Of a stretch of 56,103 bases of DNA, positions 4,636 to 54,168 are shown in pieces. Below the pieces are notes generated by a model that searched no databases, was not told where the DNA came from, and saw only the letters and a program-made list of their open reading frames with translations. The stretch is from NCBI GenBank assembly GCA_937121175.1, contig CAKZKD010000036.1, positions 1 to 56,103 of the forward strand, written 5' to 3'. The translations under genes were made by a program, and so were the position numbers. The stretch is from an uncultured Flavobacteriales bacterium. GTDB lineage: Bacteria; Bacteroidota; Bacteroidia; Flavobacteriales_G; Salibacteraceae. How positions within the stretch are numbered: the first letter of the stretch is position 1; each line of letters opens with the position of its first letter.

Positions 4636-6048
4636 ATGAACACCAGAATCCAAATTCTTAAGTATGTGATTGCCGATTGGCTTACGGCTGGAATTACTTG
4701 GATTTTATTCTTTTCATTCCGTAAAATTTACTTAGAAAATTCCGCCACTGGACTAGAAACTATAGACTTTAATGAACGATTTTTTTTCGGCCTGTTTGTT
4801 ATTCCATTAGGATGGTTGTTTTTCTACGCCATTACAGGTACCTACTATAACATTTACCGAAAATCGCGTTTGAAAGAAATGGGCCAAACGCTACTCCAAA
4901 CTACCATAGGAGTTATTATCGTCTTTTTTGTTTTACTGCTTGATGACCAATTGGCTGATTATAAAAATTATTATGTTTCCGTCGCTGTTCTTTTTGGAGT
5001 TCATTTTGTTACAACTTTCTCCTTCCGATTTGTTCTATCCTCCCAAACCGCTTATAAAATTCACAATAGAATATTAGGATTCAATACTTTGCTCTTAGGC
5101 AGTAATGAAAAAGCCTATGAACTATTTAAAGAACTAGAAGCTCAAAAAAATTCGAGCGGATTTAAGTTTACCGGCTACTTACATATCAACGGAAAAGATG
5201 GGCATATAATGAAGCCCTATCTGCCTCATCTAGGTCATGTAAATAATCTAAATCAGATATTAGAGGAAAACAATATTGAAGAAGTGATTATTGCCGCTGA
5301 AAGCTCTGAACATGGCAAGTTAGGTCGTGTTTTGAATGCTTTAAAAGACCGAAATGTAAACGTTAATATCATTCCTGACGTTTACGATATTTTGAGCGGA
5401 TCTGTAAAAATGACTTCTATTTTCGGAGCACCGCTTATTCAGATCAATCATGAAATTATGCCAGCCTGGCAAAAGTCCGTTAAACGAATATTAGACATTA
5501 GCGTGAGCGTGATGGCAATTCTTTTACTGTTACCTATTTATTTGATTTCTGCAATACTCGTGGCATTTTCTTCAAGGGGTTCTATATTCTATTCTCATGA
5601 GCGTATTGGCATCCACGGAAAACCTTTTACGATGTACAAGTTTCGTTCTATGTACTCCGATGCCGAAAAAGATGGCCCGCAACTAAGCAGTAAACAAGAC
5701 CCTAGAATTACCCCGTTTGGACGTTTTATGCGGAAGACTAGAATTGACGAAACTCCACAATTCTTTAATGTTATTAAAGGAGATATGAGTTTGGTTGGAC
5801 CAAGGCCAGAACGCCAATATTTTATTGACCAAATTGTGGAGCGTGCACCGCACTACTCTCACCTACAACGCATTAAACCCGGAATAACATCTTGGGGCCA
5901 AGTAAAATACGGGTACGCAGAAAATGTAGATGAAATGATTGACCGCATGAAATACGACATACTCTACTTAGAGAATATGTCGCTTTTCGTGGATTTTAAA
6001 ATTTTGATTTACACTGTCCTGATTGTACTTCAAGGACGAGGAAAGTAA
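4636..6048 (+). CDS. Polyprenyl-phosphate hexose-1-phosphate transferase (WcaJ/WbaP-like)
   Basis: It starts exopolysaccharide or O-antigen repeat units by moving a sugar-1-phosphate from a nucleotide sugar onto undecaprenyl phosphate at the inner membrane. The N-terminal part (1-150) has four hydrophobic segments. Residues 150-250 form a Rossmann-like CoA_binding_3 region (NTLLLGSNEKAYELF). The C-terminal bacterial sugar transferase domain (about 280-470) has a membrane re-entrant helix, then ERIGIHGKPFTMYKFRSM, the TPFGRFMRKTRIDE block and MSLVGPRPE. Length 470 aa is normal. It follows the lipoprotein gene by 3 bp and converges with the cold-shock gene. Confidence 0.92.
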   Translation: MNTRIQILKYVIADWLTAGITWILFFSFRKIYLENSATGLETIDFNERFFFGLFVIPLGWLFFYAITGTYYNIYRKSRLKEMGQTLLQTTIGVIIVFFVLLLDDQLADYKNYYVSVAVLFGVHFVTTFSFRFVLSSQTAYKIHNRILGFNTLLLGSNEKAYELFKELEAQKNSSGFKFTGYLHINGKDGHIMKPYLPHLGHVNNLNQILEENNIEEVIIAAESSEHGKLGRVLNALKDRNVNVNIIPDVYDILSGSVKMTSIFGAPLIQINHEIMPAWQKSVKRILDISVSVMAILLLLPIYLISAILVAFSSRGSIFYSHERIGIHGKPFTMYKFRSMYSDAEKDGPQLSSKQDPRITPFGRFMRKTRIDETPQFFNVIKGDMSLVGPRPERQYFIDQIVERAPHYSHLQRIKPGITSWGQVKYGYAENVDEMIDRMKYDILYLENMSLFVDFKILIYTVLIVLQGRGK

Positions 6049-13943: not shown

Positions 13944-13972
13944 TTCAGCTGCTGCTCAGCTGATTGGACCAC
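13944..13972. repeat. REP-like direct repeat, left copy
   Basis: This 29-bp stretch contains CAGCTG-CTGCT-CAGCTG, able to form a hairpin, and runs into GACCAC. It matches 14678-14706 with one mismatch and lies downstream of the transposase stop. Confidence 0.75.
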
Positions 13973-14153
13973 CCCCGCTCGTGCGCGATTGTATCGCGTT
14001 CGACCATTAGTATTTTTACACAACAACCACATTTTCTAATAACCCTTTTTCACCAGCATAATCCCCCGCTCGTGCGCGATTGTATCGCGTTCGACCATTA
14101 GTATTTTCACACAACAACCACATTTTCTAGTAACCCTTTTTCACCAGCATAAT
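13972..14153. repeat. 91-bp tandem duplication at the RAYT 3' end
   Basis: Two head-to-tail copies (13972-14062 and 14063-14153) differ at only two or three positions. Each contains the last codons of the transposase ORF plus the REP-like hairpin CGCGATTGTATCGCG and its GC-rich flank. The left copy is therefore an extra, untranslated copy of the gene end. Confidence 0.92.
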
Positions 14154-14838
14154 CTTTTGCACTGCTGTAAAGGTAATCTTCTGTATAATCAACCATTCCA
14201 GCTTTTACCGGATTTTGATGGACGTATTCTATCTTTTCATCAATGACATGATTTGACCAAAGTTCTATTGGTCGATTGTCATGTCTCCAAAACTGGTATT
14301 GTGAAACATTAGAAGAATTTTGTGCTGCATTTTTAAATTGCTCCAGCATCCACTCTCTCCTACTCTCCGAAGAATTTTCTTGGATTGCTTCTACTATCTT
14401 CTTACTCGTAAACCGTTTAAAATCGCCAAGTACTTGTTCTGGTTTTCCTTCATTGGTAATCCTAAATACCAAATGAATATGATTGGTCATAATTACCCAA
14501 GCAAATATTTCCATGCCCTTTTTCTTTTGACAATAAGTCAAGCTGTCAACAACTATGTTCTTGTATTCAACTCTTGTAAAAACATCTATCCATTCTACAA
14601 CCGCAAAGCTCACAAAGTAGATTCCTTCAGGATTATGAAATTTATAGTTGCGGCTCACAGAAACTAAAGTATATATTTTCAGCTGCTGCTCAGCTGATTC
14701 GACCACACGATGCAATCGTGCGGGAGCGGGGGGGGGTAAACTAGCAACCACATTGTTGCCAACAACCATACTCCCCCCACACTCAATATCTCTATCTTTA
14801 TCAAAAGTTCGGTTTTGGAGGTAGTAGTCGGTTACCAT
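14107..14838 (-). CDS. REP-associated tyrosine transposase (Y1/HUH), fused to a cassette-repeat N-terminus
   Basis: The transposase domain carries the HUH motif inside MTNHIHLVFRI and the C-terminal RAYT signature with the likely catalytic tyrosine in KIEYVHQNPVKAG and EDYLYSSAKDY. RAYTs nick and mobilise REP palindromes as single strands. The native start is probably GTG at 14658 (SRNYKFHNPEG), the usual N-terminus of the family. The open frame continues ~60 residues upstream to an ATG at 14838. That extension begins VTDYYLQNRTFDKDRDIECGG, which is the module that opens the neighbouring cassettes. It is therefore an in-frame fusion created by insertion next to that repeat; whether the fused protein is made is unknown. 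Confidence 0.85.
   Translation of the reverse strand: MVTDYYLQNRTFDKDRDIECGGSMVVGNNVVASLPPPAPARLHRVVESAEQQLKIYTLVSVSRNYKFHNPEGIYFVSFAVVEWIDVFTRVEYKNIVVDSLTYCQKKKGMEIFAWVIMTNHIHLVFRITNEGKPEQVLGDFKRFTSKKIVEAIQENSSESRREWMLEQFKNAAQNSSNVSQYQFWRHDNRPIELWSNHVIDEKIEYVHQNPVKAGMVDYTEDYLYSSAKDYAGEKGLLENVVVV
14678..14706. repeat. REP-like direct repeat, right copy
   Basis: This copy is 28/29 identical to 13944-13972 and lies about 20 bp upstream of the probable native GTG start of the transposase, followed by the hairpin CACGATGCAATCGTG. Confidence 0.75.
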
Positions 14839-14847
14839 GAGTTCTTG
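14757..14847 (-). repeat. Cassette junction repeat, copy C (partly diverged)
   Basis: It shares the segment encoding DYYLQNRTFDKDRDIECGG and the upstream GTTCTTG with copies at 16247-16350 and 17748-17851. The ends differ, with MVT instead of MIQ at the start and NN instead of SD after MVVG. It begins 2 bp after the preceding lipoprotein stop codon and runs into the RAYT element. Confidence 0.8.
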
Positions 14848-14849
14848 AA

Positions 14850-15542
14850 TTATCTTAGAACTAATGTGTAATATGTGGTATCTGAAATTACGTCTAATTC
14901 AATTTCCTCAAAAATATCTGGTTCAATTGAGTTATTATCCCAGCCGTCTTTACAATCGTAATATACTTTGATGGTCGCTGGTTCGGGAGATTGAACCATG
15001 AAATAAGTTAAGTAATCCTTACTTCTATCCCACCCTACCTTGCCTGGAATGTCAAGGTAGTTTTCATACCTTTCAAAGTATTGATGAAACTCTCCAGAGC
15101 ATTCAGGTAAATCATCAAGAATAAAACAACCTAATCGTGATTCAGTTCCACTTGCAATATCAATCTTAATCTTTAATACTTTAGATACGGATACGGGAAT
15201 TGGTACTGTTTCGCTTTGTATTACATGTTTATTGTTCAATTCACAATTTTTATAGAATCCTGGATTAAAATGCTCCTTTAAACCAAAATTAGTATGCACT
15301 TCTTGACCCCTATAATTCCATTTTTTTGAGAGAAACACCTTACCATTAGCATCACTTTGATATTCAGCATCGTTATGATATACCATTACTCCTTCAACCC
15401 CTTGCTTAGTTTGAATATCGAAAACGTTTATTTCAACTTCTTTGATTCTTTTTTTACAGGAGAGAATGAAAAAAGTAAGTGATAACGTTAAGCAAATTAC
15501 TTTAATGTTGTACAACCAGCTTTTTCGAACCCAAGTATTCAT
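14850..15542 (-). CDS. Cassette lipoprotein, 230 aa (paralogue of 16360-17013)
   Basis: A membrane-spanning signal ends in ILSC, a lipobox, followed by KKRIKEVEINVFD. This opening matches TKKIKEVKIIAFD in the paralogue at 16360-17013. The first ~60 residues resemble a carboxypeptidase-regulatory-like beta sandwich (GVEGVMVYHNDAEYQSDANGKVFLS). The rest is diverged, but both proteins keep similarly spaced cysteines. The gene overlaps the end of the tail gene 15502-16341 by 41 bp, the same arrangement as in the other cassette, so the pair is translated together. It presumably partners the T9SS tail protein on the surface (inference). Confidence 0.75.
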   Translation of the reverse strand: MNTWVRKSWLYNIKVICLTLSLTFFILSCKKRIKEVEINVFDIQTKQGVEGVMVYHNDAEYQSDANGKVFLSKKWNYRGQEVHTNFGLKEHFNPGFYKNCELNNKHVIQSETVPIPVSVSKVLKIKIDIASGTESRLGCFILDDLPECSGEFHQYFERYENYLDIPGKVGWDRSKDYLTYFMVQSPEPATIKVYYDCKDGWDNNSIEPDIFEEIELDVISDTTYYTLVLR

Positions 15543-16341
15543 CTTTTGATTTTATTTCTATAAAGTAAGTTCCAGAAGCAAAGTCAGATATTTCAATTGA
15601 AAATTCCTTTTTCCCAGTTTCTATTTCCTGTTCAAATAATACATTCCCTAATACATTTGAAATTTTAACTTTTGTAAATAGAACTTCCGAATCTATTTTA
15701 ACCAATGTATTTGCCGGGTTCGGCTTCAAGGTAAATTCAATTGTATTTATCGACTCCTCCTCCTTCCAATCATTATCGTTTAATTCAGATATTTTTTCCT
15801 GCACAACTACAATACTAGATGGTACACAGCCATCAACTTTAGCAGTAAGAGAATATTGTCCTTTTTCTATATAATCTGGAATTGTGAACTCATTGGAACC
15901 GATTGATATGTTAGTCTTATACCCTTTTAGGTTCCAATTTAGTACATCCAGTTCACCCGAAACGGAATAAACTATTTCATTTTGAATATTGGAAGTAATA
16001 ATTCTACCACAGCCTTGGTTACCTGAATTATCAGACCTTTTATTTGGGTCTGTTCCATCAACTCGTGCTTTAAAACTAGAGCCTTTAGTTGCTTTAAAAC
16101 CAGCTTTAAGTTCAATTGAATCTTTTGCTTCAAGGAAAAGAGAATTACCCTGATTAACAACAACATTTCCGTTTGATTCGCTTTTTTTTGTTTCAGTAGT
16201 CGTTAACGAAGAATAAAAGTCATCATCATATAAATATTTGTCTGGTGGCAACACATCACTCCCCACCACCATTTTACCCCCACACTCAATATCTCTATCT
16301 TTATCAAAGGTGCGGTTTTGAAGGTAGTAGTCTTGAATCAT
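15502..16341 (-). CDS. Orphan T9SS tail cassette, 279 aa, without signal peptide
   Basis: It begins MIQDYYLQNRTFDKDRDIECGG, the same residues found internally (about 674-696) in the lipase-like protein 16982-19861, and is homologous to that protein's C-terminal end throughout. Residues ~55-95 form the stacked beta segment (SLFLEAKDSIELKAGFKATKG) common in Bacteroidota surface proteins. Residues ~200-279 are a T9SS sorting domain (LKPNPANTLVKID ... GTYFIEIKSKDE). It has no signal peptide, so the T9SS domain cannot work by itself. This points to a silent cassette or a remnant that needs recombination into the full-length gene. Confidence 0.75.
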   Translation of the reverse strand: MIQDYYLQNRTFDKDRDIECGGKMVVGSDVLPPDKYLYDDDFYSSLTTTETKKSESNGNVVVNQGNSLFLEAKDSIELKAGFKATKGSSFKARVDGTDPNKRSDNSGNQGCGRIITSNIQNEIVYSVSGELDVLNWNLKGYKTNISIGSNEFTIPDYIEKGQYSLTAKVDGCVPSSIVVVQEKISELNDNDWKEEESINTIEFTLKPNPANTLVKIDSEVLFTKVKISNVLGNVLFEQEIETGKKEFSIEISDFASGTYFIEIKSKDEYLGSKKLVVQH

Positions 16342-16350
16342 AAGTTCTTG
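16247..16350 (-). repeat. Cassette junction repeat, copy B (104 bp)
   Basis: It is identical to copy A (17748-17851) at all but about five of 104 positions, while the flanking tail-coding sequence is far more diverged. It starts 9 bp after the stop codon of the lipoprotein 16360-17013 and supplies the ATG of the orphan tail gene. Confidence 0.9.
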
Positions 16351-16359
16351 GCAATATGA

Positions 16360-17013
16360 CTAAAATATTATTTCTATAAAATTTGTATCTCCGAATTGTA
16401 CCGGAAAATCAAATGATGTATCCGGAATATCATTGAAATTACATTCAGAACCGTAATAAACTCTGACCCCTTGTAAATCAGAATCTGGATATATAGGATG
16501 ACTAAACGAGTTTCCTTGATTAAACCCTGGTAATTCTAATTTTCCATCACTGTTTATCTCAATTTCAGAACCCACTTCTCCAACACACTCTATGTTACTA
16601 AAAATTATACAACCCTCAGATAATGAACGATTATTATTAATTACTCTGACTGTATAAACAGTTTTTTTTCGAAATGGAATCATTAATAAAGATGATTCAA
16701 TTTTATAAGCGGTTGTTGGTTCACAATTATCCTTTAAACCTGCATCTCCATACTCTTCTAGAAAACTCGGTATTCCGATAAAATTTCCAGTTAAATCTCT
16801 ACGGCTTGTTAATATTGCTGCACCGTTTTGGTCGGTTATTAAAGTTTCTCCGGATTCTAAATAGAGCGTTATTCCGGGAATTCCTTTAGCTTCGATTAAA
16901 TCAAAGGCAATTATTTTAACCTCCTTTATTTTCTTAGTACATGAATATAAAGTGAATAGAACTATAAGAAATAGAATTACTTTAGTGCGATACAACAAAT
17001 CTTTTTGTTTCAT
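16360..17013 (-). CDS. Cassette lipoprotein, 217 aa
   Basis: The signal ends in LYSC (lipobox) followed by TKKIKEVKIIAFDLIEAKGIPG. It shares its opening and overall layout with 14850-15542: a regulatory-like beta sandwich (GITLYLESGETLITDQNGAAIL), then a Cys-containing C-terminal half. It overlaps the end of the lipase-like gene by 32 bp, so it is probably translationally coupled to it. It should be an outer-membrane or periplasmic lipoprotein; the cassette arrangement suggests a matched partner of the upstream tail (inference). Confidence 0.75.
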   Translation of the reverse strand: MKQKDLLYRTKVILFLIVLFTLYSCTKKIKEVKIIAFDLIEAKGIPGITLYLESGETLITDQNGAAILTSRRDLTGNFIGIPSFLEEYGDAGLKDNCEPTTAYKIESSLLMIPFRKKTVYTVRVINNNRSLSEGCIIFSNIECVGEVGSEIEINSDGKLELPGFNQGNSFSHPIYPDSDLQGVRVYYGSECNFNDIPDTSFDFPVQFGDTNFIEIIF

Positions 17014-19861
17014 AATCTCGATTTTTAAAATGTGCTCTGACTAAATAAGTGCCATTACCATAGTTACTAATGTTCATTGCACATTTATTTAGCTTTGGCT
17101 TATATGCTTCAATTTCCTTTCCGTACATATCAAATACTTCAACAACCTCAATAATTTCACTTGATTGCAAAACAATTTCTTTATCAGCTGGGTTCGGTGA
17201 TAATATTAAATTACTTTCTACAATATTATCATAGATTATTTCATCATTTTTCGTCTCTATTTTTGCTTGAGCAACTGATATAACAATTGTTGGAATTGAA
17301 CACCCTATAGTATTAACTTCAATTGAATACTGACCTTTACTTGTACCCTTTGGAATCGTGAAAGAATTACCCGATGACTGAACCATTGAATTATAACCGA
17401 CCATTTGCCATTGAATTGCTTCTTCGGCATTTGATACCGTGAAAGTCCTTTCGCCGCCAACAATGTTTGTGTTAATTTGGCCACAGGAAGTCTGGCTGTT
17501 ATCAGAACGAGTATTAGGATTTGTTCCATCTACTTTTGCATTAAATTCTGCACCATTCTCAACTTTAAAACCAGTTTTAAACGTTATTTTATCTTTAGCT
17601 TCAAGTAATAACTCAATGCCTGATTTCACGGTTATAATTCCAATATTTTGGCTTTTTTCTGTTTCAGTAGTGTTTAAGCCACTTGCTATATATTTCCCAT
17701 AATTGTATAAATAATTTTTACCTACATATGGCGGTACACTTATACTTGGCAACACATCACTTCCCACCACCATTTTACCCCCACACTCAATATCTCTGTC
17801 TTTATCAAAAGTTCGGTTTTGGAGGTAGTAGTCTTGAATCATAAGTTCTTGAAAACAAATAATGTCTCTGATTATGGTTTCTTGAAAAATAAAGGGGTGC
17901 TGCATATTTTCTTTTCCTGGAACATTTACCGAATATACTTCATCAAATGGGGTCAGGTTGTTATTTATAAAGTACGATTTCCCTTTTCCTGAATTTCGGT
18001 CGTAATTATAAAAATTAGCACCTGTAAAATAACTGTCCGAGACATCCATAGCAGATAAGGTTGAGACCATCATAGGTATATTCATTACTTTTTGTCCCCT
18101 AGAATAAATATCAGCTACTAACATACTTCCAGGAGCATTCTCCCACGGTTTGTCTCCAAAATCTTTTTTTCCTCTTCTGTATTTAGGTAGGCGCTTTTTG
18201 CTTAATCTTACAAATTCCCAATATTTAAAATTCGTTTTGTTCAATGGAGAGCATTTACCCCAAAAATGGAAGTACGTTATTGGCGGTAGAGGTACGATTT
18301 TCTGAATCATTTTTGTACCTGAACCAAACCCATGATCATTTCCTCGGTTACTGCCGCAAACCAAGGACACCTTTCGGCAGTTTTGCGGCCAGCCTACCGT
18401 ATTTAGCCAATTTCTGAGCTGTGTATGTTTTATCTGACCAACTGGATTATTGTGTTGGACCACCATCTGCAATGCCGCAGGTGAGTTAATGGCATCGTAA
18501 ACATCCTTAACTTTGGGGATATACTTATTAGTATTGAAAATACTTAAAATGGGTGCCCAATTTTGTTTACGAACTATCCAAGAAGGTACTTCCTGTAAAA
18601 TGTCCCGATATAGCGTCTGTAAAAATGGCGCAACACTAGCCCCTTTGTGTGGTGTGTCGCTGGTAATTAAAGTGCCAATTTGGTGATCATACCCCGCACT
18701 CTCCAAGCCTGCTAGAGCTCCGCGACTTATAATACCACCCATACTCAAGCAAAGCATTGCCCCCTCATGTTTTTCAACGAAATTTTGTCCGGCCGAATTC
18801 TGTTTATGGACAACAAACTGAATAAAATGCTGAATATAATTAATGTTATCAAATATATTTCCTCTACCGTCTTTAAAATTAGTAATGTAAACATCATAAC
18901 CCGCACTTCTGAGAAGCGGTATGTAGTCTATCATTCGCGAGTAGGATTTTCGTGCATCGGTAGTATTCAATACATCAAACCCTTCAACGAAAATAAATGG
19001 CTTATTTGATTTGTTGTCTAGCCCTTTATAAAACAAATAATCTAAACCACCATTTGCGTTGGTCGATCTAGACCCAAAAGATTCACCAGAAGTGTCTGTG
19101 GTATCCGTAACTTCTCCAAATATAGCATCGGTTAGAAAAGAGACTACAGATAGCACGTCTATGTAACTGTAGCACAGAGTAGTATCACCAATACTATCAA
19201 CAACCCTGTAAATAAGATTTTTTTCTCCTGAAGTGAGGTAACTAATTGGTACAATGGTTTCTGAGTTTAAACTAATACTCTGAAATCCATTATTATCGTC
19301 GAAGTCAACAGATAAGTTTACAATATTGTCCTGGGTAAAAATTAATTGTGGGTGGAATTTAAAATTTACCTGACCCTGAGAAATAAACTTGGCTAATGGA
19401 GCAGCGCATAAAAAATTAAATTCTTTAAAAACAAGAGCTTGGCCACTGTCATAATGCAATTCAATGACCGTATCCTTAACATATTCGCCCTTCAAAAAAA
19501 TAAGAGGGTTAGCAATCGTGCTCACTTGCTCATCCAAATAATATATGTCGTTATATTCGTTTTCCAACTCTTGTCTGCTGGGAATGCTCAGCAAACTATT
19601 CGTGCGCATTACCGGGGTTCTATAATCGTCAAAATCTTCGTAGTTGAAAATCATTGCCTCATGTTCATCCCAAGTTTCAAAATGATAGCCTGTTAAAAAC
19701 CCTCGATTGAACAAAAAATCAGTTTGCATTGCCGATGTATCTAGCGTGTCGTAAAACGCCTCAATATCTTGAATTAGGGTATCAATCTCTGGCGTTTGTG
19801 ATTTTCCGTGATAGCTAAAAGCTAGGCTGAGCATCAACAAAAAGAATGGTAAACATCTCAT
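16982..19861 (-). CDS. Secreted lipase/esterase-like alpha/beta hydrolase with T9SS tail, 959 aa
   Basis: A signal peptide (ending near KSQ) is followed by a ~230-residue beta-rich region. An alpha/beta hydrolase domain (about 280-500) comes next, with KPFIFVEGFDVL, the nucleophile elbow CLSMGG and SDTPHKGASVA, all typical of PGAP1/lipase-like enzymes; the usual first Gly of GxSxG is Cys here. From ~674 the protein has the DYYLQNRTFDKDRDIECGG junction module, then the stacked beta segment, then a T9SS sorting domain (LSPNPADKEIVLQ ... GTYLVRAHF). It should be exported to the cell surface and may cleave lipids or esters. Its ATG overlaps the stop of the upstream gene by 4 bp. Confidence 0.82.
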   Translation of the reverse strand: MRCLPFFLLMLSLAFSYHGKSQTPEIDTLIQDIEAFYDTLDTSAMQTDFLFNRGFLTGYHFETWDEHEAMIFNYEDFDDYRTPVMRTNSLLSIPSRQELENEYNDIYYLDEQVSTIANPLIFLKGEYVKDTVIELHYDSGQALVFKEFNFLCAAPLAKFISQGQVNFKFHPQLIFTQDNIVNLSVDFDDNNGFQSISLNSETIVPISYLTSGEKNLIYRVVDSIGDTTLCYSYIDVLSVVSFLTDAIFGEVTDTTDTSGESFGSRSTNANGGLDYLFYKGLDNKSNKPFIFVEGFDVLNTTDARKSYSRMIDYIPLLRSAGYDVYITNFKDGRGNIFDNINYIQHFIQFVVHKQNSAGQNFVEKHEGAMLCLSMGGIISRGALAGLESAGYDHQIGTLITSDTPHKGASVAPFLQTLYRDILQEVPSWIVRKQNWAPILSIFNTNKYIPKVKDVYDAINSPAALQMVVQHNNPVGQIKHTQLRNWLNTVGWPQNCRKVSLVCGSNRGNDHGFGSGTKMIQKIVPLPPITYFHFWGKCSPLNKTNFKYWEFVRLSKKRLPKYRRGKKDFGDKPWENAPGSMLVADIYSRGQKVMNIPMMVSTLSAMDVSDSYFTGANFYNYDRNSGKGKSYFINNNLTPFDEVYSVNVPGKENMQHPFIFQETIIRDIICFQELMIQDYYLQNRTFDKDRDIECGGKMVVGSDVLPSISVPPYVGKNYLYNYGKYIASGLNTTETEKSQNIGIITVKSGIELLLEAKDKITFKTGFKVENGAEFNAKVDGTNPNTRSDNSQTSCGQINTNIVGGERTFTVSNAEEAIQWQMVGYNSMVQSSGNSFTIPKGTSKGQYSIEVNTIGCSIPTIVISVAQAKIETKNDEIIYDNIVESNLILSPNPADKEIVLQSSEIIEVVEVFDMYGKEIEAYKPKLNKCAMNISNYGNGTYLVRAHFKNRDYETKRFVVSH
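17748..17851 (-). repeat. Cassette junction repeat, copy A (inside the lipase-like gene)
   Basis: This 104-bp segment encodes ELMIQDYYLQNRTF through the ECGGKMVVGSDVLP region of the full-length protein. Copies B and C repeat it at the start of downstream cassettes. In-frame exchange at this repeat would replace the whole C-terminal tail. Confidence 0.9.
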
Positions 19862-21237
19862 TTCGCCTCTATTTTCTCATTCAACTCAATCATATAAAGC
19901 GTAAGTTCCTCAACTTTCTCCATGAGTAGTAAGTTCATCTCCTTAAGTTTCATGTTTTCTTGAATTACCTCTTCCGCAGTCGGCGCGCCGGGTAAATGTC
20001 CGTTTTCTTCAATGTATTTTTTAAGTTCATCAATCGGCATAAGGTTATAGTCTTCCTCAAAAACATAATCCGGAAATGAGCCGGTTTTTACTTCAATTTC
20101 ACGAGCATATAAATACCCGTCATGGGTAACTGTAAAGTTTTCAGTACTGTTTTGCTGAATACTCAATACTTTTTGTTTGGATGAGCTACTTGTTGAGTAT
20201 AGAGTCAATACGCCGTTGTGAACTTCTACATCTGCTCCATCAACAAAAACATCGTCATCAACAAATAGTTTACCGTCTAGATACGTATCCCCATCTTCTA
20301 CTCTCAATTCACCTTGTTTAAGCTTTAATCCTCCTGCTTGAGGATTTATTTCCACATTTCCTTGGTTACCTATGGTAACTCCATACGTTACTCCACCCAC
20401 TATATATTCAGATTTGAAGGCATAACCAGAAGTACTTGCACTGGTGGTATAAAAACCACTTGGGCTGTTGGGGTGTGAGTAGCTCGTGAAATTATACCCC
20501 AAAGATGGAGAAGTAATACTACCAGTAATCACATTACCTAAGGTTTGAATCTCTCCACTACCACGGATAAAAAACATCTCACTTGGTGGGTTTTGGTCGT
20601 ATAGTTTTCCTACAAAAAAATTAGCGTTGCTACTGGTAACTGCCGAGCAAAACGCAGTACCTTCAGTATTGTTTGTTCCTCCAGAGATAGCCACCAAAGT
20701 AGGCGTAAACACATTTAATTTACTACCATCGAGACTTCCAATATAATTTGGATCCATAATTTCTATAGAACTCATACTATGACCGCCCACATATACTTTG
20801 TTTACTGAACTTGAATAAGCCAGAACTATATCTTCGTTATACATTCCTGGATTTGCATTCAACATCAATGGTCCGTGGGTAGTCCAAATAGCATTCTCGC
20901 CTCCTTCTTCCCCAATCCAAACAGAGCTATCTCCAACTTTAACCGTTTTTGCAACCATCATCGAATCGCAAAATGCCGTGCGCAATGGCCTTAATCTGCC
21001 ACTTGGAGTAATAGTTAGTATGCGGTCGTTAGTTAATGAAGTGTCTTTGTAAAAATTGTATTTCAGCACTCCTTCAAAAGTGGCTTTATCTCTAAAGATG
21101 GATTTACCGTTAACGTCTAGGAGTTTGTTTGGGCTTATAGTACCAATACCAACGTTACCAGAAGTTGGCAATGTGTTTTGGGCACAAACTATTCCTGAAA
21201 TCAGAATAGCGCAAGGAATTAAAAGTAGTTTTTTCAT
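19858..21237 (-). CDS. Tail-fibre-domain-like secreted protein, 459 aa
   Basis: The ATG at 21237 gives a normal signal peptide (MKKLLLIPCAILISGIVCAQ); the frame extends 23 codons upstream without a signal. The N-terminal motif NVGIGTISPNKLLDVNGKSIF is typical of Bacteroidota proteins with phage tail-fibre-like N-termini. The middle is repetitive beta structure (EIQTLGNVITGSITSPSLGY). Near the end is YVFEEDYNLMPIDELKKYI, and the last 40 residues are a coiled coil (NMKLKEMNLLLMEKVEELT), as in trimeric fibres. Its stop overlaps the hydrolase start (ATGA), so the two are co-translated; it may be a surface fibre or chaperone partner. Confidence 0.78.
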   Translation of the reverse strand: MKKLLLIPCAILISGIVCAQNTLPTSGNVGIGTISPNKLLDVNGKSIFRDKATFEGVLKYNFYKDTSLTNDRILTITPSGRLRPLRTAFCDSMMVAKTVKVGDSSVWIGEEGGENAIWTTHGPLMLNANPGMYNEDIVLAYSSSVNKVYVGGHSMSSIEIMDPNYIGSLDGSKLNVFTPTLVAISGGTNNTEGTAFCSAVTSSNANFFVGKLYDQNPPSEMFFIRGSGEIQTLGNVITGSITSPSLGYNFTSYSHPNSPSGFYTTSASTSGYAFKSEYIVGGVTYGVTIGNQGNVEINPQAGGLKLKQGELRVEDGDTYLDGKLFVDDDVFVDGADVEVHNGVLTLYSTSSSSKQKVLSIQQNSTENFTVTHDGYLYAREIEVKTGSFPDYVFEEDYNLMPIDELKKYIEENGHLPGAPTAEEVIQENMKLKEMNLLLMEKVEELTLYMIELNEKIEAK

Positions 21238-21353
21238 GTTCTTGAGATTTAGATTGGTTTCAAAGGTTAGTCCCAATAGAGTGTTTTCCTTATGCTCATT
21301 TAGCATAAAATGAAGCGCTAATTCTATTAACTTAGCCTTCGAAACTGAACTAA

Positions 21354-53491: not shown

Positions 53492-53824
53492 TTAAGCTAC
53501 TTTAATATTGCCTTCGTTTATTTCCACACTGAATTTGACTTGCGCTTTCAATGCTCGAAATACTTTCAAAACAGTTTCGATTGTAACGTTTTTTGTACTT
53601 TTCTCAATCTTTGAAATTTGAGCCTTTTGAACACCAACAAGTTTTCCAAGTTGTTCTTGAGTCAAGTTCCTTTCCTTGCGTACTAACTTAATCATTTCTC
53701 CAAGCACTTCGAGTCTCAAGTCAAATTCGTATTTCTCGCGGTCTGATGAACCAACCTCACCAATATGCTTGTCCTTTATTTGGTCAAGCGTCATCATTTT
53801 CATTTTTTTCTGCGTTGCTTTCAT
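53492..53824 (-). CDS. higA: Cassette gene: HigA-type XRE antitoxin, 110 aa
   Basis: An XRE HTH spans ~50-105 (MIKLVRKERNLTQEQLGKLVGVQKAQISKIEKSTKNVTIETVLKVFRAL). The N-terminal ~45 residues (TLDQIKDKHIGEVGSSDREKYEFDL) are the toxin-interacting part typical of HigA. It follows the toxin gene by 11 bp, giving the toxin-first HigBA order. It likely neutralises the toxin and represses the operon. Such pairs stabilise cassette arrays. Confidence 0.85.
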   Translation of the reverse strand: MKATQKKMKMMTLDQIKDKHIGEVGSSDREKYEFDLRLEVLGEMIKLVRKERNLTQEQLGKLVGVQKAQISKIEKSTKNVTIETVLKVFRALKAQVKFSVEINEGNIKVA

Positions 53825-53835
53825 AATCCAAATTT

Positions 53836-54168
53836 TTATTGTTCAAAGTATTCGTCTCTAATTATCTCAGCCTTCTCGATTTCCTTTTTTGGAACTTTGT
53901 CGACCTTTTTTACGTTTCCGTGAGTCGAAACCACAAGAGTTTCCGTTTCTCCTGATTTATCCCAGAATGCAAAAAGTCGATATTGAAGACCTCGATACTT
54001 TGTTCTAAACTCCCAAATTTCAGCCGTCAGCTTCTTGAATAGTTTCGGGTCATTTTCAAAACGAGCTTTGTCAATGTTATAAATGACCTTAGCTTTTGAT
54101 TTCGATTCTAAAGATTCGATAAACTCAATTGCTTGTTCAAGAAATACAACTTCAAACTTGGGATTCAT
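53836..54168 (-). CDS. higB: Cassette gene: RelE/HigB-type toxin, 110 aa
   Basis: A RelE/ParE-superfamily (Gp49-like HigB) fold: VVFLEQAIEFIESLESKSKAKVIYNI at the start, LTAEIWEFRTKYRGLQYRLFAFWDK in the middle and VSTHGNVKKVDKVPKKEIEKAE near the end. It is a probable ribosome-dependent mRNA interferase or a related growth inhibitor. It forms a type II toxin-antitoxin pair with the downstream XRE gene. Confidence 0.87.
   Translation of the reverse strand: MNPKFEVVFLEQAIEFIESLESKSKAKVIYNIDKARFENDPKLFKKLTAEIWEFRTKYRGLQYRLFAFWDKSGETETLVVSTHGNVKKVDKVPKKEIEKAEIIRDEYFEQ

Follow-up and report, generated by a model that had tools for sequence, protein, structure and literature searches.

Reloading of an exported protein from orphan cassettes is known from the Rhs, contact-dependent growth inhibition (CDI) and Maf toxin loci. 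In Salmonella LT2, an rhs main gene is accompanied by an rhs-CT orphan with its rhsI gene, the two sharing a 522-bp block at 95% identity (PMC3967940), and orphan modules of cdiA-CT and cdiI have been described for CDI (PMC3150448). Other relevant systems are the TANFOR polymorphic toxins of Bacteroidetes, which are associated with the type IX secretion system (T9SS) and combine variable C-terminal toxin domains with a downstream partner gene (PMC7073777); the lipase effectors Tle of the type VI secretion system (T6SS), which come with an adjacent lipoprotein, Tli, giving immunity against the periplasm-acting lipase (PMC9860674); and the orphan immunity arrays of Vibrio cholerae, attributed to sequential effector displacement (PMC5361080). 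Here we describe an array of tail-plus-lipoprotein cassettes behind a T9SS-tagged, lipase-like gene in an uncultured Flavobacteriales bacterium of the Salibacteraceae (GCA_937121175.1). The window analysed, to which all coordinates below refer, is contig CAKZKD010000036.1, positions 1–56,103 (56,103 nt). Our analysis indicates that over evolutionary time the cassettes of this array have very probably been exchanged at a 104-bp junction repeat with which each of them begins.

All genes of the locus lie on the minus strand, in the order fibre-like gene, lipase-like gene, lipoprotein A, orphan tail B, lipoprotein B and the start of a third cassette. The parts are as follows.

16982..19861, minus strand: full-length lipase-like gene (predicted PGAP1-type alpha/beta hydrolase, 959 aa, T9SS-tagged), with signal peptide, hydrolase domain and, from residue 671, tail A
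17747..17851, minus strand: junction repeat copy A, within the full-length gene, starting CAAGAACTTATG
16982..17842, minus strand: tail A (junction module, 3-coathanger stack domain, Ig/PKD-like region, T9SS type A sorting domain)
16360..17013, minus strand: lipoprotein A, 217 aa, lipobox YSC
16246..16350, minus strand: junction repeat copy B, starting 9 nt past the stop codon of lipoprotein A
15502..16341, minus strand: orphan tail B, 279 aa, domains as in tail A
14850..15542, minus strand: lipoprotein B, 230 aa
14743..14847, minus strand: junction repeat copy C, 79% identical to copy B
14107..14838, minus strand: junction C fused in frame to an open reading frame (ORF) for a REP-associated tyrosine transposase (RAYT; NF047646, E=2.1e-26)
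13944..14160: REP-like palindromic elements and a 91-nt tandem duplication on the 3′ side of the RAYT, with a partner palindrome at 14678–14735
19858..21306, minus strand: fibre-like gene with NVGIGT repeats and a EELTLYMIELNEKIE end, overlapping the lipase start by 4 nt

A first-pass annotation of this DNA had pointed out that the tail of the 959-aa protein recurs downstream as an orphan gene, and that the repeat at the junction is about 95% identical between copies A and B while the tails and lipoproteins are strongly diverged. Both observations hold. Orphan tail B starts with the same CAAGAACT module at which the tail of the full-length protein opens (Q671, followed by an internal Met674 and by DYYLQ from residue 677). 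Identity between copies A and B is 95% along 105 nt, against 34.7% for the tails outside the junction and 26% for the lipoproteins. The annotation also had each tail followed by a paralogous lipoprotein with the same overlap; the lipoproteins are indeed paralogous, but the overlap, in which the lipoprotein gene starts within the 3′ end of its tail gene, is similar rather than identical (32 nt in cassette A, 41 nt in cassette B).

Two cassettes had been counted and the third junction, copy C, was missed. The three copies lie in direct orientation at an even spacing of about 1.5 kb, and a search of the whole genome for a fourth found none, the next match being 19 nt long (E=0.2). Copy C runs in frame into the RAYT, and neither tail nor lipoprotein is left behind it. 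With the transposase ORF in place of the tail, cassette C is broken. Its identification as a RAYT follows from the NF047646 match, which is above cut-off, together with the REP-like palindromes on both sides; short REP-like copies and one further transposase relative occur elsewhere in the same genome. Site-specific inversion of the shufflon kind was ruled out by the direct orientation of the repeats and the lack of a visible recombinase: among the ORFs of the window, inspection by eye recognised none besides the RAYT. Promoter and terminator scans gave nothing above chance.

Genomes were searched at four taxonomic levels, with 35 taken from the family, 42 from the order, 395 from the class and 395 from the phylum (the tail profile used beyond the family excluded the transposase row). 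Among the genomes searched, one further genome carries these tails, the metagenome-assembled genome (MAG) HKST-UBA67 from another genus of the same family. The tail alignment retrieved HKST-UBA67 only, tail B alone had no relative in the genome contigs, and the lipoprotein profile revealed no other array in the searched genomes of the order, class and phylum. The 5.6-kb HKST-UBA67 contig, from a short-read assembly at low coverage, holds, in this order, the end of a full-length hydrolase gene fused to tail X, lipoprotein X, orphan tail Y, lipoproteins Y and Y2, orphan tail W and lipoprotein W. Behind lipoprotein W, a 77-nt stretch (5503–5579) is 97% identical to hydrolase sequence at the other contig end (1–77); probably, another recent copy of the 3′ part of the gene comes after cassette W; alternatively, the assembly closes into a loop. 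Y2 is an extra lipoprotein without a tail. We considered the sequence before it as a tail remnant and dropped the idea, the lipoprotein and tail genes overlapping there, so that Y2 is better regarded as a lone lipoprotein copy. Across the cassettes, tail and lipoprotein genes overlap by 32–44 nt, which suggests that the two are translationally coupled. In a different genome (G012, contig 5, 291–5366), three tandem T9SS sorting domains about 2.3–2.5 kb apart, each 37% identical to tail A, look like another tandem family of T9SS cargo.

Comparison of the two arrays shows one type of cassette in two states, fused here and orphan in HKST-UBA67. The hydrolase stretches ahead of the junction are alike in the two fused genes (48/68 identical), whereas the cassettes fused to them differ (A versus X, 39% for tails and 32% for lipoproteins). 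The counterpart of cassette A is W, an orphan in third position without a signal peptide, with 54% identity in the tail outside the junction and 73% in the lipoprotein; other pairs of types reach 35–44% and 23–32%, respectively. Moreover, the repeat has a sharp left edge at CAAGAACT in all copies and a right edge that fades. This left edge falls on the same base in all six junctions of the two genomes, mostly directly after the stop codon of the preceding lipoprotein, as expected if whole junction–tail–lipoprotein units move by crossing over in the junctions.

Phylogenetic tests gave conflicting histories for junctions and cassettes. We ran the approximately unbiased (AU) test over all 15 topologies for five cassettes, two of them from this genome (A, B) and three from HKST-UBA67 (X, Y, W). 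For the junction, it favoured A with B and rejected every tree joining A with W (p<=0.0105). For tails and lipoproteins, every A+B tree was rejected (p<=0.0007 and p<=0.0005), and each of the two groups A with W at 100% support. Junction C groups with junction Y of HKST-UBA67 (support 94). Synonymous differences per site (pS) point the same way: between A and B they amount to 0.29 in the junction versus 0.61 in the tail (Fisher p=0.018), and divergence is also lower inside the junction for X–W (p=0.008) and X–Y (p=0.0001), whereas for A–W it is equal inside and outside (0.578 versus 0.581, p=1.0). Thus, neither the equal synonymous divergence nor the unchanging order of tails that the first-pass annotation had set against its own proposal of a tail-switching locus was found: A–B divergence is unequal, and the A type is fused here and a third-position orphan in HKST-UBA67. 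The conflicting trees, together with the fused and orphan states, make cassette exchange well supported. Of the proposal itself, which we judge partly supported, exchange over evolutionary time is what these results sustain.

The exchanged part leaves the hydrolase domain whole, for the junction begins just after a conserved residue: Gln671 lies 16 residues past His655, which is invariant in an alignment of 14 homologous hydrolases and is the probable catalytic His. The predicted nucleophile Ser373 (SMGG) is kept in the same alignment, in a GxSxG-like elbow whose first Gly is replaced by Cys. The PGAP1 match scores 18.6, under the gathering score of 24.3, and a PDB sequence search with the hydrolase gave no match; by sequence, the protein is predicted to be a lipase of a PGAP1-like alpha/beta hydrolase type. 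It is the single full-length gene among the cassettes that bears a signal peptide (read by eye from MRCLPFFLLMLSLAFSYHGKSQ). Signal peptide, Por_Secre_tail domain and a T9SS-encoding genome together mark it as T9SS type A cargo, and the T9SS component SprA (SprA_N) was found in both array-bearing genomes. As the annotation had stated, orphan tail B has a sorting domain but no signal peptide at its start. The sorting domain is present in both tails A and B (PF18962, E=2.4e-7; NCBIfam TIGR04183 above cut-off). Both tails also match the coathanger stack domain NF045639, above cut-off in B and below it in A, and an Ig-like stretch sits between this domain and the sorting domain. An AlphaFold2 model of the tail was poor (predicted local distance difference test score, pLDDT, 57), being confident for the sorting domain alone.

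Within the cassette, conservation of type is uneven. The lipoprotein is the best-kept type-specific part between A and W, and the Ig-like region is 61% identical between these two compared with 32–40% between types. The coathanger part is similar across types (47–71%), and identity in the sorting domain is low even between members of one type (39%, A versus W). Such type-specific conservation suggests that the Ig-like region and the lipoprotein recognise each other. Lipoproteins Y and Y2 are 75% identical in their first domain and 41% in the second. A model of lipoprotein A (pLDDT 75) resembles Ig/CnaB-like beta-sandwiches. After the lipobox Cys, the lipoproteins have basic rather than acidic residues (C-TKKIKEV, C-KKRIKEV, C-NRIKEV), and an acidic export signal has been described for surface lipoproteins of Bacteroidota (PMC5080379). 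Lacking that signal, the cassette lipoproteins may face the periplasm. Two stray relatives were seen. One is a lone, distant one in the same genome (contig 37, L101 6245–6946; profile E=4e-10), adjoining another small lipoprotein gene; genome G170 (L102 1575–2942) encodes a tandem pair of paralogous lipoproteins in this size class, the first of them matching the profile (E=7e-9), with no lipase nearby.

Taken as a whole, the explanation that we favour, and regard as fairly likely, is an exchange locus for a T9SS-exported lipase with antagonism as its likely function. The constant part would comprise the signal peptide and the complete hydrolase domain, and the exchangeable unit would be the junction, the tail (coathanger stack, Ig-like region, sorting domain) and the lipoprotein gene that goes with it. 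The first unit would be fused to the hydrolase and exported, and units further back would be silent orphans because they have no signal peptide. Homologous recombination between junction copies, we infer of the ordinary RecA type and still going on, would load a different tail onto the hydrolase, the partner being either the array's own copies after duplication or incoming DNA with another array. Older units would be pushed downstream, there to persist or to decay, as copy C did. Interbacterial antagonism is, in our estimation, the most likely function: toxicity would come from the lipase and specificity from the Ig-like part of the tail, and the lipoprotein would act as cognate immunity or holding partner, blocking the lipase in transit or on its arrival from kin. 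That each lipoprotein is the cognate partner of its tail is probable; immunity in the strict sense we put forward tentatively.

Several observations weigh against this explanation or blur it. The cross-genome pair B–X is also low in the junction (p=0.008), and the contrast is therefore not purely a within-genome one; this fits traffic between genomes as well as within them. The array was found in two genomes, with one sequence each and no variation within a strain among these, and the HKST-UBA67 array, a short-read, low-coverage MAG contig, may contain assembly errors. As to function, an Ig/CnaB-like fold is equally usual for surface anchors or adhesins, and the lipoproteins found beside other lipases are not shown to form one family with the cassette ones (hhalign probability 37%).

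If the 3′ end of the gene had simply been duplicated in tandem and had diverged, with selection keeping the junctions alike, there would have been no exchange and the orphans would be relics. The tandem direct repeats with their even 1.5-kb spacing suit such an origin, cassette C is plainly a relic, and the near-invariant junction protein sequence in all copies implies some constraint. Constraint on amino acids, however, leaves unexplained why junction and cassette trees reject one another in the AU test, why synonymous divergence is low for A–B but not for A–W, and why copies A and B have ATTCAA in common where all other copies carry GTAACC-like codons. In addition, none of the orphans B, Y and W has a disrupted reading frame, and under neutral substitution at the junction dS of 0.37, tail B would have stayed free of stop codons by chance with a probability of about 0.0015; at such odds the orphans were either recently displaced or kept by selection. 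Duplication without exchange is thus improbable in our view. That collapsed or chimeric repeats joined unrelated cassettes during assembly is hardly credible: the HKST-UBA67 contig does end alike over 77 nt at 97%, but two separate assemblies show the same architecture with intact ORFs, and the repeat, whose 104 bp fall short of common read lengths, is here enclosed in a 56-kb contig.

Other alternatives accept exchange and dispute antagonism. Tails might be exchanged for surface or adhesive variation, with the lipoprotein as outer-membrane anchor or assembly partner, and different tails might direct the lipase to other targets or shield it from phages or grazers. Consistent with this, the folds that the lipoprotein model recalls are pilin/CnaB and Bacteroides adhesion-type ones, the gene coupled to the lipase on its upstream side is fibre-like, and all tails are of one fold, unlike toxic tips. 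Yet the lipoproteins have no acidic export signal (PMC5080379) and possibly face the periplasm, and the tailless Y2 is easier to understand as retained immunity; we consider this alternative somewhat unlikely. Less probable again is a role unrelated to cell competition, in which the lipoprotein would be a dedicated chaperone or holdase of the periplasm, holding the lipase in an inactive state ahead of T9SS export and having to match the tail because it binds it. The translational overlap of every tail with its lipoprotein, the missing export signal, suggestive of a periplasm-facing protein, and the recurrence of lipase–lipoprotein pairs in the class would all agree with it, but it gives no reason for alternative tails or for an extra lipoprotein without a tail.

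How, then, does the locus relate to the systems described above? As in Rhs and CDI, a long exported protein has an exchangeable C-terminal part and downstream orphan 3′ fragments without export signals, each fragment is paired with a small downstream gene, a near-identical block marks the junction (95% identity in both cases, over 522 bp in LT2 rhs and over 104 bp in this array), and one and the same module can be fused in one genome and an orphan in another. In contrast, the tail here is a homologous coathanger/Ig/T9SS sorting module rather than a toxin domain of unrelated origin, and it is the enzyme that stays constant. The T9SS takes the place of the type V secretion system or T6SS, and the partner, whose gene overlaps that of the tail, is a lipoprotein. 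Pfam and NCBIfam scans detected no Rhs YD repeats, no CdiA/two-partner secretion, and no VENN or DPxGL. Variation of a toxic tip was rejected, since all tails are homologous (35–54% identical) with the same domains. The locus is not classed as a member of Rhs/CDI, though the orphan-cassette logic is the same; it is this logic, and not an exchanged toxic tip, that survives from the orphan-tip arrangement likened to Rhs/CDI in the annotation.

TANFOR toxins share with the locus their occurrence in Bacteroidota, an association with T9SS genes, a variable C-terminal part and a downstream partner gene, but the variable part here includes the T9SS signal. Membership was set aside for want of a match in the Pfam/NCBIfam scans, whose libraries may hold no TANFOR model, and a term search of the TANFOR paper (PMC7073777) turned up no mention of orphan cassettes or lipoproteins. 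The pairing of a lipase with an adjacent lipoprotein gene recalls Tle/Tli. It differs in showing no link to T6SS, since inspection by eye of the ORFs in the 56-kb window brought up no T6SS gene. Its specificity would be set by the tail instead of the lipase, and inhibition is conjectural here. In the V. cholerae arrays, too, older units are pushed downstream by newer ones and partner genes are kept; here the orphan tails are also kept, so that units can be reloaded. We found no T9SS case of orphan cassettes in the literature searched, an absence that is no proof of novelty.

Upstream of the lipase, the locus continues into the fibre-like gene, beyond the span first described. Hydrolase homologues in other Bacteroidia often adjoin such a gene, which precedes the lipase there as well. 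Moreover, a small lipoprotein is encoded beside 6 of 13 lipase homologues elsewhere in Bacteroidia, compared with 6 of 65 control genes (p=0.0036). A recurring set of a T9SS hydrolase, an NVGIGT fibre-like gene and one or two small lipoprotein genes can be seen at L107 (70–6275), L103 (8430–12010), L108 (6257–11024), L112 (5980–10420), L111 and L106; as far as we searched, this set is undescribed. Elsewhere in the window, a small gene pair at 53492–54168 looks, by eye, like a HigB/HigA-type toxin–antitoxin module.

A broader and more speculative possibility is that the locus represents a new kind of polymorphic competition system in Bacteroidota, in which a T9SS lipase of constant activity carries an exchangeable tail of one fold that, with its cognate periplasm-facing lipoprotein, defines kin groups, and orphan cassettes form a reloadable reservoir. 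If so, specificity would be switched without a change of toxic activity. What exchange moves here is the secretion and recognition end together with the lipoprotein, not the active domain. Annotation pipelines would miss such loci because orphan tails look like truncated genes. The data point to small lipoproteins as repeated, undescribed companions of T9SS lipases throughout the class. They also provide T9SS research with a testable example of a lipoprotein partner specific to its cargo, and suggest a route to strain-level diversification of exported enzymes.

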